Source of the DNA: an uncultured Bacteroidales bacterium
GTDB taxonomy: Bacteria > Bacteroidota > Bacteroidia > Bacteroidales > Bacteroidaceae
DNA: 64,000 nucleotides
NCBI GenBank assembly: GCA_902779875.1
Contig: CACZCX010000017.1
Location: 56,848 to 120,847, forward strand
Reading direction: 5' to 3'
Shown here: positions 49,630 through 55,292 of the stretch, piece by piece
Numbering within the stretch: position 1 is the first letter of the stretch
Layout: every line of letters starts with the position of its first letter
Translations under genes and position numbers: made by a program
The notes under the pieces: model-generated
Database searches by the model: none
Told to the model about the DNA's origin: nothing
The model's input: the letters and a program-made list of their open reading frames with translations, nothing else

Positions 49630-51000
49630 TCAAAACAGCATTTCGTAAGTATCATAAACGACCGACCGCGCGCCGAATCCCTCCTTCTGGAATATGAGCC
49701 CCTCATTCAGATAGCTGCCTCCGTTCTCGGTCGAGACGCCAAAGTCAAAATAAGTGCGGTCGGCATAGACCTCGCTGATAAGGGTCTTGAGCAGCAGATC
49801 CAGCGCCCCGTTCCTCTTGCCGGAGTCCGATGAAGCCAGATACTGCGTATGAACCACATGCCCCATGTCGTAGACAAGCGCGCCGGCCACCACCTCGCCG
49901 CCGTCACGCACCACGTGCAGCTTGATCTGCCCCGGGAAACGGCTTGCGAGCAACTGCAGCTCAGCTATGGTATGCACCGGCTTTTTCCTGTGCTTGTCCA
50001 TCAGTATGCCCGCCAGGATATTCCAGAAGGCCTCAAGGTCCGATGTCATATTACCGTCATCCACCACCAGGCCCGCCTTACGTGCCTTGGCCAGCCCGTT
50101 CTTGCGCGACTGACGCATGGGCAGACGGTTCGAGAAATCAATGACCGATGACACTCCCCTCTCCTTGAGCTTGCCTCCGCTGCGGAACAGCGCGTAAAGG
50201 TCCTCCTCGGCCGGGAGCTTGCTGTATATATACGGTATAGGTTTATAGAGCCAGCGGTGAGCCCCGAGTTCCCGTTTCATCCAGTCGATGGCGCAGCTGA
50301 ACACCTCGAGCGCATCGACAGCGATCATATCCTTGGGAACAATCAGGCCGCCGTAGGTCAGACCTCCGTGCGACTGCACCGTACCCTCGTCCTCACGCCA
50401 GTTGGCCGGCAGCATGGCCAGCAGCTTGCCGTGCTTGTAGAACATGAGCGAGCAGTCCCTGAACCGGTCGCTGTGGTAGTCCATGTAGCCGCGGTCAAAC
50501 AGGAACGTGCCGTTCTTGGACGCCGCCACAAAAGCGTTCCACTCCTCCTTATGTGATTCGTCGTACCTCACCACCGAGAGCTGCTCGGTCAGATACTCGT
50601 TATAGTCGTTTATATAGCCCGATGCATTATACGGGTGCGATGCAAACACCATGCAGACCGTGCCGGGCGCAAAGTCCCTCAAATCGCACCATACTCCGGG
50701 CGGGATAAGGATACCCTTGCGGGGAGAGTCCATAAGCACCTCGGAGTGATGCGTGCCGTCATCGACCATCATACGGAAACTGCCGGTCACCGGTACGACC
50801 ACCTCGGCAGACTCGCTGTGGGAATGGCCGCCGCGGGTCTTGCCCTCGGGCACCCCGTAAATCCAGAACACACGCTCTATCTGGAAAGGAATCTGATGCG
50901 CACCCTCGGCAAACGAGAGCGCTCCCCTGTCATCGGCCGATTCAGGGAACTCTATGATCCTGCATCCTCTTGGTAATGATATATTGTTGTTTTCAGACAT
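49630..51000 (-). CDS. Fusion: dTDP-sugar 3,4-ketoisomerase (FdtA/WxcM-like cupin) + FemAB/GNAT-like acyltransferase
   Basis: 456 residues. Residues 1-140 are a cupin of the FdtA/QdtA type: [39 protein letters not shown] (catalytic His pair in GGHxH) and [15 protein letters not shown]. Residues about 150-456 form a FemAB/GNAT_6-like fold ([64 protein letters not shown]). In the Fuc3NAc/Qui3NAc pathways ketoisomerase, transaminase and N-acyltransferase act in sequence; here first and third may be one protein. It precedes the aminotransferase by 2 nt. Confidence 0.88.
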
Positions 51001-53233: not shown

Positions 53234-55210
53234 TTATTCCTCGGGAGCGGGAGTATAGCTGTAACCCAGACCCGCACGGGTCACGATGCAGTGCGAGTAA
53301 GGCTCAATCTTCTTGCGGATACGTGTTATGTTGACATCGACGGTACGCGGCGTCACGATCACGTCATTGGGCCATATGGTCGAGAGCAGGTCCTCACGCG
53401 AGAACACCTTCTCGGGATTGTCAACAAACAGCGACAGGATATCGAGCTCAGTCTTGGTCAGAGGCACGGGATAGCCGTCAATCCTTACCACACGCCCTTG
53501 GGGGTCGAGTGCGATGCCCTTGACATGCGTATCGGTGATAGCCACACCAAGTCTGGCCTCCACCACATTGATGATATAGTCACCGGTCTTTTCACACTCG
53601 CTTATGATATCAGTGTAGATTGTACCGCTGGCATAGCTGTAGTCATGCTTGTCAATAGCCATGATGTTCTGCTGCTTGAGTTTGGTACGCAAGGCATTGA
53701 TCTGAGTCTCGGTCGATTTGGCTGTCTCTATGCTGAAATCCTCTCTGCGGCCTGAGAGCAGCATATTCATCTCGGTTACGGCAGCCTTGACCAACTGGAG
53801 CATATCCTTGACGCCCTGAACCTGGGCCTCGGTAAAGTCAATCTTGTTCTCACGCTTGCGGTGCATGATACGCGCCAGATTGAAGAAACTGTCACCCACG
53901 CTCTCCAACTCGCCGATCTGACGGAGCATGGAGCGGATCTTCTGCTTGGAGTCATCGGACAGGTGAGCCTCACCTATCTGTCCCAGGTAACGGCCTATCT
54001 CACTCTCCATCTCATCGCTCTGGTCCTCATACTTGGCAATCCTGTCATAGAGTTTCCGGAACTCGTCATTGTCATTGGTAGAATAGAGGGTAAGCACCTC
54101 GTCAAACATTTTCTGCATCTGCTCACCGAACACAACAATCTCTTTCTGCGCCTGCAGGAGCGAGATTTCAGGCGTCTTCATAAGACCGCCGCGGATAAAC
54201 TGGAGCTTGGAGCCCTCCTCCATCTCGCTTGCCTTGGGCTTGATGATGCTGCACACAATCCGCTCAAGCTGAGGTATGAACCATATAAGTATGAACGTGT
54301 TGATGACGTTGAACCCTGTATGGAAAGCGGCAAGCGCAAAGTTAAGCTGGGCAGGTGACTGTGAGCTGGCCGTAGGATCCAGACCGACCACGCGGCAGAC
54401 GGTGTTCACAAAGGGATAGAACACGCAGAGTATCCAAACCACGCCGAACACGTTGAACAGCAGGTGCGACATGGCGGCGCGACGGGCCTGAGTATTGGCC
54501 GACATGGCAGCCAGGTTGGCAGTGAGCGTGGTGCCGATGTTCTCACCCATAACGAGCGCGATACCCTGATAGATCGATATGGCACCGGTAGAGCAGAGCA
54601 CCATGGTGATGGCCATGAGTGCGGCCGATGACTGCGCGATGCAGGTCAGCACCGATCCTATAAGCAGGAATATGACGATGGTCAGGTATTTGCTGGAGTC
54701 AAACGATGTAAAGAAGGCCATGGCATACTCGTTGTGCGCCAGGTCCATCTCCTCACCGGTGGAACGCAGCAGACTGATGGCAAAAAGCAGGAAGCTGAGT
54801 CCGAACAGGAAATCGCCCACATATCTGTGTTTTCCGGTCTGGATGAGTATGATACCCACCAGAAAAGCAGGCCAGACTATATTGGCTATATTAAAAGAAA
54901 AACCTGCCGACATTATCCATGCCGACAGGGTAGTACCGATATTAGCGCCCATTATGACCGATATGGCCTGTGCAAGAGTAAGAAGAGCAGCGTTAACGAA
55001 AGATACGGTCATTACCGTGGTTGCTGCCGATGACTGAACGGCTACCGTTACAAGAGCGCCAGTGGCTACGCCTGAGAATCTGTTTGTGGTCATTGATCCC
55101 AGTAGATGTCGAAGGCCGGGACCAGCCATTTTCTGAAGGGCTTCGCTCATCACTTTCATGCCATAGATGAGCAGGGCAATTGCGCCCAGAAGTTTCAATG
55201 CAATCAACAT
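53234..55210 (-). CDS. Na/Pi cotransporter (NptA-like) fused to PhoU and a PhoB/OmpR-type DNA-binding domain
   Basis: 658 residues. Membrane part (1 to about 315) with two inverted repeats: AVQSSAATTVMTVSFVNAAL…GANIGTT and CIAQSSAALMAITMVLCSTG…GENIGTT (QSS and GxNIGTT motifs). PhoU-like helices about 345-555. Residues 563-658 are a winged helix: LTKTELDILSLFVDNPEKVF, SREDLLSTIWPN, RTVDVNITRIRKKIE and VTRAGLGYSY, all canonical Trans_reg_C. Typical family members end after PhoU. One uninterrupted frame links the parts. A Pho-box-like direct repeat precedes the promoter. Confidence 0.92.
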   Translation of the reverse strand: MLIALKLLGAIALLIYGMKVMSEALQKMAGPGLRHLLGSMTTNRFSGVATGALVTVAVQSSAATTVMTVSFVNAALLTLAQAISVIMGANIGTTLSAWIMSAGFSFNIANIVWPAFLVGIILIQTGKHRYVGDFLFGLSFLLFAISLLRSTGEEMDLAHNEYAMAFFTSFDSSKYLTIVIFLLIGSVLTCIAQSSAALMAITMVLCSTGAISIYQGIALVMGENIGTTLTANLAAMSANTQARRAAMSHLLFNVFGVVWILCVFYPFVNTVCRVVGLDPTASSQSPAQLNFALAAFHTGFNVINTFILIWFIPQLERIVCSIIKPKASEMEEGSKLQFIRGGLMKTPEISLLQAQKEIVVFGEQMQKMFDEVLTLYSTNDNDEFRKLYDRIAKYEDQSDEMESEIGRYLGQIGEAHLSDDSKQKIRSMLRQIGELESVGDSFFNLARIMHRKRENKIDFTEAQVQGVKDMLQLVKAAVTEMNMLLSGRREDFSIETAKSTETQINALRTKLKQQNIMAIDKHDYSYASGTIYTDIISECEKTGDYIINVVEARLGVAITDTHVKGIALDPQGRVVRIDGYPVPLTKTELDILSLFVDNPEKVFSREDLLSTIWPNDVIVTPRTVDVNITRIRKKIEPYSHCIVTRAGLGYSYTPAPEE

Positions 55211-55228
55211 ATTTCAATATTTCAACCA

Positions 55229-55259
55229 CAAAAATAGGCCTTATTCCCAATTACACAAA
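55229..55259 (-). promoter_or_regulatory. Promoter (TTTG-N19-TATTTTTG) of the Na/Pi-winged-helix gene
   Basis: Minus strand TTTG (55259-55256) and TATTTTTG (55236-55229) are 19 bp apart, giving a start near 55223, about 13 bp before the ATG at 55210. Confidence 0.7.
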
Positions 55260-55273
55260 TAAAATGGGAAAAA

Positions 55274-55292
55274 TGTAATGAAATTGTAACAG
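55274..55292 (-). promoter_or_regulatory. Pho-box-like direct repeat upstream of the -33 box
   Basis: Minus strand CTGTTACAATTTCATTACA: TTACA repeated with 11-bp spacing, the geometry recognised by PhoB-type winged helices (E. coli CTGTCAT n4 CTGTCAT). Centred about 60 bp upstream of the predicted start, a normal activator position. The gene it controls encodes such a winged helix. Binding is inferred. Confidence 0.5.

Follow-up and report, generated by a model that had tools for sequence, protein, structure and literature searches.

Can a phosphate transporter be the transcription factor of its own gene? How phosphate transporters signal to PhoR through PhoU has long been asked, and this signalling is difficult to test, since its components are separate from one another and bound to the membrane. 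In the window studied here, which is the whole stretch of 64,000 nucleotides analysed from an uncultured Bacteroidales bacterium, one minus-strand frame of 658 codons (53234-55210) is open without an internal stop and joins a Na/Pi cotransporter, a PhoU-like region and a PhoB-type winged helix. With transporter, PhoU and effector joined and no kinase between them, the coupling of transport to transcription becomes testable with one gene and one promoter. A single membrane protein may, in some Bacteroidales of gut and rumen, cover work that is usually divided among a transporter, a kinase and a stand-alone regulator.

Domains of the fused protein

The fused protein was assigned to Na_Pi_cotrans (3.2e-53), PhoU (5.7e-11) and Trans_reg_C (4.4e-21, residues 581-651) by Pfam, and no receiver family is among the five Pfam families listed. 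The transporter part covers residues ~1-330 (54221-55210, minus strand), scores 179.9 bits to PF02690 (cut-off 29.1) and 215.3 bits to TIGR00704 (cut-off 210.1), and has SLC34 as its counterpart in the PDB. Membrane insertion and sodium-coupled phosphate uptake are predicted from this family membership. A PhoU-like helical region (PF01895) follows at residues ~346-554 (53549-54175, minus strand), with blocks of pLDDT 71-94 and PhoU 2i0m at Foldseek rank 7 (TM 0.82 by target length). Residues 555-562 (53525-53548, minus strand) form a short joint to the winged helix, with pLDDT below 50 at 558-560; its place corresponds to that after the last residues of unfused NptA in relatives. The AlphaFold model as a whole has a mean pLDDT of 78 and a pTM of 0.48, so that the placement of the domains relative to one another is tentative.

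The winged helix itself (PF00486; residues 563-652; 53255-53524, minus strand) resembles the effector domain of PhoB by sequence and by fold. Among the regulator models in the best 25 of 45 NCBIfam families, residues 560-652 score highest to NF053854, the Bacteroides PhoB family (113 bits), followed by the PhoB family TIGR02154 at 68; phmmer against the PDB places E. coli PhoB effector chains at the top (7e-16), and Foldseek ranks 1-5 are PhoB effector domains, free and bound to pho-box DNA (1gxp). Profile, phmmer, helix alignment and Foldseek thus identify a PhoB-type effector domain with its recognition helix and not a full-length PhoB, for which the 113 bits fall short of the 270 of NF053854, cover model positions 132-224 only and include no N-terminal receiver. 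The recognition helix (residues 621-634, limits taken from the AlphaFold model; 53309-53350, minus strand) contains RTVDVNITRIRK, and at the positions that presumably face the DNA its residues equal those of most Bacteroidales PhoB rows. The earlier note had read the frame as an NptA-type transporter, PhoU and a complete winged helix without a receiver, and Pfam, NCBIfam, phmmer and Foldseek agree with that reading.

The neighbouring genes lie on the same strand. Directly downstream is a protein of the sodium/bile-acid symporter family (PF01758; 52315-53160), which by eye seems to have its own TACCTTTG promoter element, and upstream is a glucuronyl-esterase-like protein (PF22244; 55418-56677) that is probably unrelated. 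Further along, the frame at 49630-51000 (minus strand) combines, by eye, sugar-isomerase-like cupin and acyltransferase-like parts.

Distribution of the fusion

The earlier note had allowed for two separate genes joined by the assembly, and relatives do carry nptA and phoB as two genes in tandem (18 loci). Yet the same joined frame recurs in 21 of the 37 genomes of the genus, the window included, and in other genera, and the titles of the source projects indicate several sampling projects, with many of the contigs carrying fused or unfused loci coming from rumen. This conservation of the joined frame excludes an assembly fusion, and an assembly or frameshift artefact is barely conceivable. The 20 other fused genomes of the genus have 66-72% identity to the window in the main piece; in 19 of them the homologue has 70-72% identity and is matched from residue 1 (16 genomes) or from residue 7, 11 and 18 (three genomes), and in the twentieth it consists of two fragments. 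In a family sample of 201 genomes, at least 16 were fused among the matches listed, which ended at about E 3e-170 (eight from this genus and two from each of four others), and the loci L003-L112 include 46 fused among 110 with close copies counted. The threshold of a class-wide search (345 genomes), E 1e-190, was so strict that distant fusions may have escaped it. Completeness of the genus genomes ranges from 62 to 100%, and the absence of a gene from any one of them therefore carries little weight.

Probable origin from tandem genes

Transporter frames were found at 150 loci, of which 60 are fused, 18 are followed by a PhoB-like gene on the same strand and 72 have neither arrangement (close copies counted; 15 of the 18 tandem loci were fetched because the adjacency had already been seen). 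Separate tandem genes are likely to be the ancestral state. The unfused NptA of tandem loci ends in words like GDYVVNVVQARLGK, and in an alignment of 15 fused and eight tandem rows the fused proteins pass through GDYVVNVVQARLGK-like words into the first strand of the PhoB effector. Because the fused rows run straight from the end words of NptA into the effector, loss of the stretch that begins at the nptA stop and ends with the PhoB receiver would be the simplest account.

In a quick transporter tree, one fused family group is sister to tandem rows and the window's clade lies elsewhere. A single fusion event was rejected by this tree for groups that were named after the tree had been seen (AU p 2.5e-6 for the two fused groups together, 1.1e-6 for the first group with L020, and 1.3e-9 for all three). 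In the winged-helix tree, the first fused group falls among the PhoBs of tandem loci, and that of the window lies next to PhoBs of rumen Bacteroidales (weak, 94/67); taken alone, this tree does not reject one origin (p 0.15). Two origins are favoured, short of proof, and the fusion was probably made at least twice. The winged helix of L020 groups with other family fusions (98/93) and its transporter groups with tandem genes, so a transferred tail is more likely there than a third fusion. Many switches between fused and unfused states inside the large clade may be losses or paralogues. In G255, G259 and G266, the fetched copy is unfused and a fused copy is also present.

A Pho-box-like site at the promoter

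The promoter of the fused gene was described earlier as a TTACA-type direct repeat upstream of a TTTG-N19 promoter; the sequence reads as claimed, and the site is a conserved promoter element in relatives. TTTG (55256-55259, minus strand) and TATTTTTG (55229-55236, minus strand) are separated by 19 nt and are taken here to be the -33 and -7 elements of a Bacteroides-type promoter. The box, TGTTACAATTTCATTACA (55274-55291, minus strand), lies 37 nt before the -7 element and has the two direct repeats with a period of 11 nt by which a Pho box is described in the sections of PMC4415409 consulted. When up to three mismatches were allowed, the window site had one match in the whole 2.14 Mb genome, namely itself. 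The reversed control also gave one match, so rarity alone proves nothing and the weight lies on conservation in relatives.

In the genus, the box of the fused gene reads T(A/G)TTAAGATT(A/T)TGTTACA or a near variant and lies ~84 nt upstream of the start, with 37 nt between it and the -7 element; the window box is a diverged copy with the spacing unchanged. Of the 27 rows in the window's clade that have a box, 26 show the 37-nt spacing, with the window and close copies counted; L153, where the spacing is 40 instead of 37, is out of register in the conservation rows. Over 17 rows, hand-picked and anchored on their box and so biased in favour of the box, conservation was 1.55 bits per position in the box, 0.21 in the 40 nt before it and 0.79 in the 37 nt between box and -7 element, and the window's mean identity to the other rows was 67% in the box, compared with 20% on its upstream side and 37% on its downstream side. 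In four other genera, the fused genes carry a variant of TGTAACC-N4-TGTAACA at -82 to -88, which is 24-32 nt upstream of the -7 element; the weakest of these, that of L018, is not beyond shuffles (0.155).

The genus-box pattern, with at most one mismatch, gave 31 matches in the 37 genomes and 29 in the summed reversed control. Within the 21 genus genomes that have the fusion, 18 of the 19 matches lie before the fused gene, including all 15 exact ones (the control gave 19 matches in these genomes). The signal is therefore one of location and not of raw count, since raw counts do not exceed the reversed control; the pattern was built from these same promoters, and it misses the window's own site. 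The pattern YGTAAYNNNWTYGTAAY was searched in 24 genomes, eight fused and 16 tandem, and gave 60 matches against 20 in the reversed control (both summed). In the fused genomes, seven of the 21 matches lie before the fused gene, in seven of the eight genomes, and in the tandem genomes (39 matches) the tandem nptA is preceded by one in 13 of 16, once in reverse orientation. Ten tandem loci with a match were inspected, and seven have the box 31-32 nt before a -7 element. The other YGTAAYNNNWTYGTAAY matches looked at lie before unrelated-looking frames. The largest number in any of the eight fused genomes, eight, is that of G122, which has its fused gene on C42 and a PhoB on C6. The pstB regions of four genomes with the fusion (G147, G104, G209 and G211), which take in the sequence ahead of the run's first frame, gave no box scoring 12/14; this was a search with one pattern, and looser sites may exist.

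Boxes are also found in other settings. In G215, which has PhoB, nptA and phoB-phoR are divergent, with a similar box between them. In G259 and G266, the box GGTTAAAATTCTGTTACA stands directly upstream of both fused frames (L275 and L276 being the loci in these genomes), 37 nt before the -7 element; these genomes hold together an unfused and a fused transporter, a PhoB-like protein, the box and an intact helix, and PhoB could be reading the box there. At G119:C83:4346-4361 (L225, L273), the box TTAAGATTTTGTTGCA lies on the opposite strand near the start of an unfused nptA paralogue with 39% identity, in a genome without PhoB or fusion.

Recognition helix and box

The box-bearing fusions have the PhoB recognition helix RTVDVNITR(I/L)RK or one close to it. 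In the fused proteins of other rumen Bacteroidales (L043-L053 and L059-L099), the helix is altered and a clear box is missing, and function therefore does not follow from architecture alone. When close copies were removed, helix and box agreed in 35 of 36 rows, which amounts to ~3 independent contrasts (sign test p 0.25). The cut-offs behind this count were chosen post hoc: 21.9 for the helix, between L013, L018 and L020 (22.0) and L045 (21.4), and 10 for the box, with L060 and L090 counted manually as box-less and L149, L150 and L154 left out because of their N-terminus or a contig edge. The exception is L036, which, like L274 when scores of at least 12/14 are required, has an intact helix without a box; the fused L275 and L276 have both.

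Rates of change follow a similar division. The median ratio of dN in the winged helix to dN in PhoU is 1.05 and 1.03 in the box-bearing groups and 1.72 and 1.56 elsewhere. In the box-less groups, dN of the winged helix is still well below dS, with synonymous sites near saturation; L043-L053 and L059-L099 thus keep the domain despite the altered helix.

PhoB, PhoR and Pst beside the fusion

In the genus, PhoB over the curated cut-off is present in none of the 21 fused genomes and in five of the 16 others (Fisher p 0.010). PhoR was likewise found in none of the 21 and in four of the 16 (E 1e-25, with the one protein beside phoB in G215 as query); all four are PhoB carriers, and in the fifth carrier phoB lies near a contig end. 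The family sample has PhoB in 120 of 201 genomes, divided as one of 16 fused and 119 of 185 others (p 5.5e-6, with relatedness ignored). A third set of 50 hand-chosen genomes (22 with a fused copy fetched, 26 unfused, three of which also hold a fused copy, and two tandem) gave no contrast: with the tandem genomes apart, PhoB over the cut-off occurs in two of 25 with a fused copy and two of 23 with an unfused copy only, and full-length matches below the cut-off occur in two with a fused copy and one without. PhoB is therefore rare anyway in these rumen clades. The suggestion that PhoR and PhoB would be absent beside the fusion thus stands within the genus and fails as a rule, as G122, G231 and G259 carry PhoB over the cut-off beside the fusion; G239 and G266 have a full-length match below the cut-off. 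The fusion usually occurs without PhoB, but this does not prove that it has taken over the work of PhoB.

Neither PhoB nor the fusion is present in 11 of the 37 genus genomes. Among genomes without PhoB or fusion, G050 and G088 (96-97% complete) also have no match to the Na/Pi transporter at E 1e-60, with weaker ones at ~1e-54 and ~1e-51. PstB scores at least 313 bits in six of the 37 genomes, four of them fused, and in none does it exceed the family cut-off. The PhoB model also finds an RprY-like winged-helix regulator in the genus, whose recognition helix reads RSMDVYITKLR at each of the 25 loci inspected (15 of these in genomes with the fusion). Because this helix differs, the RprY-like regulator is a poor candidate for reading the box.

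Proposed mechanism and alternatives

The fusion is real, conserved and unusual, and circumstantial support for autoregulation through its own box is good; the sensing step is a proposal. On balance, the protein is probably a one-protein phosphate regulator, a membrane-embedded autoregulator without a phosphorelay that would have arisen by collapse of an nptA-phoB pair. The transporter would hold the winged helix at the inner face of the membrane, where the winged helix would bind the box of its own promoter, as helix and box together suggest. Phosphate status may be read by the transporter or the PhoU region and may expose, hide or pair winged helices on the tandem repeat, so that transport or PhoU would gate DNA binding. 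PhoU links transporters to PhoR elsewhere, and it sits between transporter and effector in the fused protein. According to the sections of PMC4415409 consulted, the E. coli PhoB effector without its receiver binds DNA constitutively, and the NptA-PhoU part is therefore likely to act as a restraint on the winged helix. Because the box is just upstream of the -33 element, activation, that is, positive autoregulation in low phosphate, fits slightly better than repression. The Bacteroides fragilis Na+-dependent phosphate transporter BF4351, which may not be an orthologue, is 101-fold lower in low phosphate in a PhoB-dependent manner (Table 2 of PMC3547664), and this speaks against the simple picture. 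The most complete form of the proposal is a tentative one, somewhat less likely than not: that the transporter is itself a transcription factor, in which transport or phosphate occupancy switches the winged helix on its own promoter via PhoU and so replaces PhoR-PhoB, and that this arose at least twice by excision of the receiver from nptA-phoB pairs.

The same constitutive binding of a receiver-less effector could be put to use without any sensing of phosphate. The winged helix would then bind permanently and hold the transporter level steady, in the manner of a thermostat, with the tether limiting it to its own locus, and such a limit fits the 18 of 19 box matches that lie at the gene itself in genus genomes with the fusion. 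PhoU is nevertheless kept between transporter and winged helix with many invariant columns, and a box upstream of the core promoter instead of over it fits repression less well; this reading is unlikely, though it deserves to be kept in mind. Much less probable is proteolysis at the joint, which would free a soluble PhoB effector to act on several genes. The low confidence of the model at residues 558-560 would suit a cleavage site, but a freed effector acting widely agrees poorly both with the 18 of 19 matches at the fused gene and with the lack of a 12/14 box, by one pattern, in the pstB regions of four fused genomes.

A winged helix that survives as a structural or protein-binding relic, with another regulator reading the box, is also improbable, by a hair less so than proteolytic release. 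Another use of the domain is conceivable in L043-L053 and L059-L099, which retain it with altered recognition residues, and a few genomes hold a PhoB beside the fusion. Against this, the box-bearing groups have the helix of PhoB or one close to it, the box and the helix mostly occur together, and the RprY-like regulator of the genus has a different helix at 25 of 25 loci.

Comparison with known systems

A search of titles and abstracts, covering few subscription papers, found no description of a phosphate transporter joined to a DNA-binding domain. CadC and ToxR have a winged helix of the OmpR/PhoB type. Like transmembrane regulators of that kind (PMC10269533, main-text parts), the fused protein joins membrane segments and a DNA-binding domain in a single polypeptide, and it would act from the membrane. 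With PF00486 and PF02690 in one frame and long N-terminal helices in the model, it falls within the definition of a transmembrane transcription regulator given in those parts of the survey, which asks for a DNA-binding domain and one or more transmembrane segments in the same protein; it is not a PhoB, because it has no receiver. About 56% of the regulators in the survey are single-pass, and no transporter-fused regulator is described in its abstract or in the passages used here. In the fused protein, by contrast, the membrane part is a complete secondary transporter, and the winged helix is C-terminal, behind PhoU, and derived from the PhoB of the same pathway. Another two-component system shortened to one membrane protein is Rsp of Neisseria gonorrhoeae, in which the PilS receptor is joined to the DNA-binding domain of PilR (PMC10269533, same parts); Rsp is built from the sensor of the kinase, however, and not from a transporter.

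The remaining comparisons concern phosphate itself. In the PhoR-PhoB system, PhoU stands between transporter and regulator. This system with its transporter has the effector domain, the type of box (two 11-nt direct repeats) and the nutrient in common with the fused protein, but the fused protein has neither kinase nor receiver and combines transporter, PhoU and effector in a single chain. Na/Pi cotransporters of the NptA/YjbB kind have a PhoU tail and so share the transporter and PhoU part, but they have no DNA-binding domain. The tandem nptA-phoB genes of Bacteroidales (18 loci) encode the same two proteins in the same order, with a Pho-box-like site before nptA in 13 of 16 genomes searched (once in reverse orientation), but as two genes and with a complete PhoB that includes the receiver. 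Tandem genes, fusions with a box and fusions without a box form a natural series for the change from a two-component to a one-component system.
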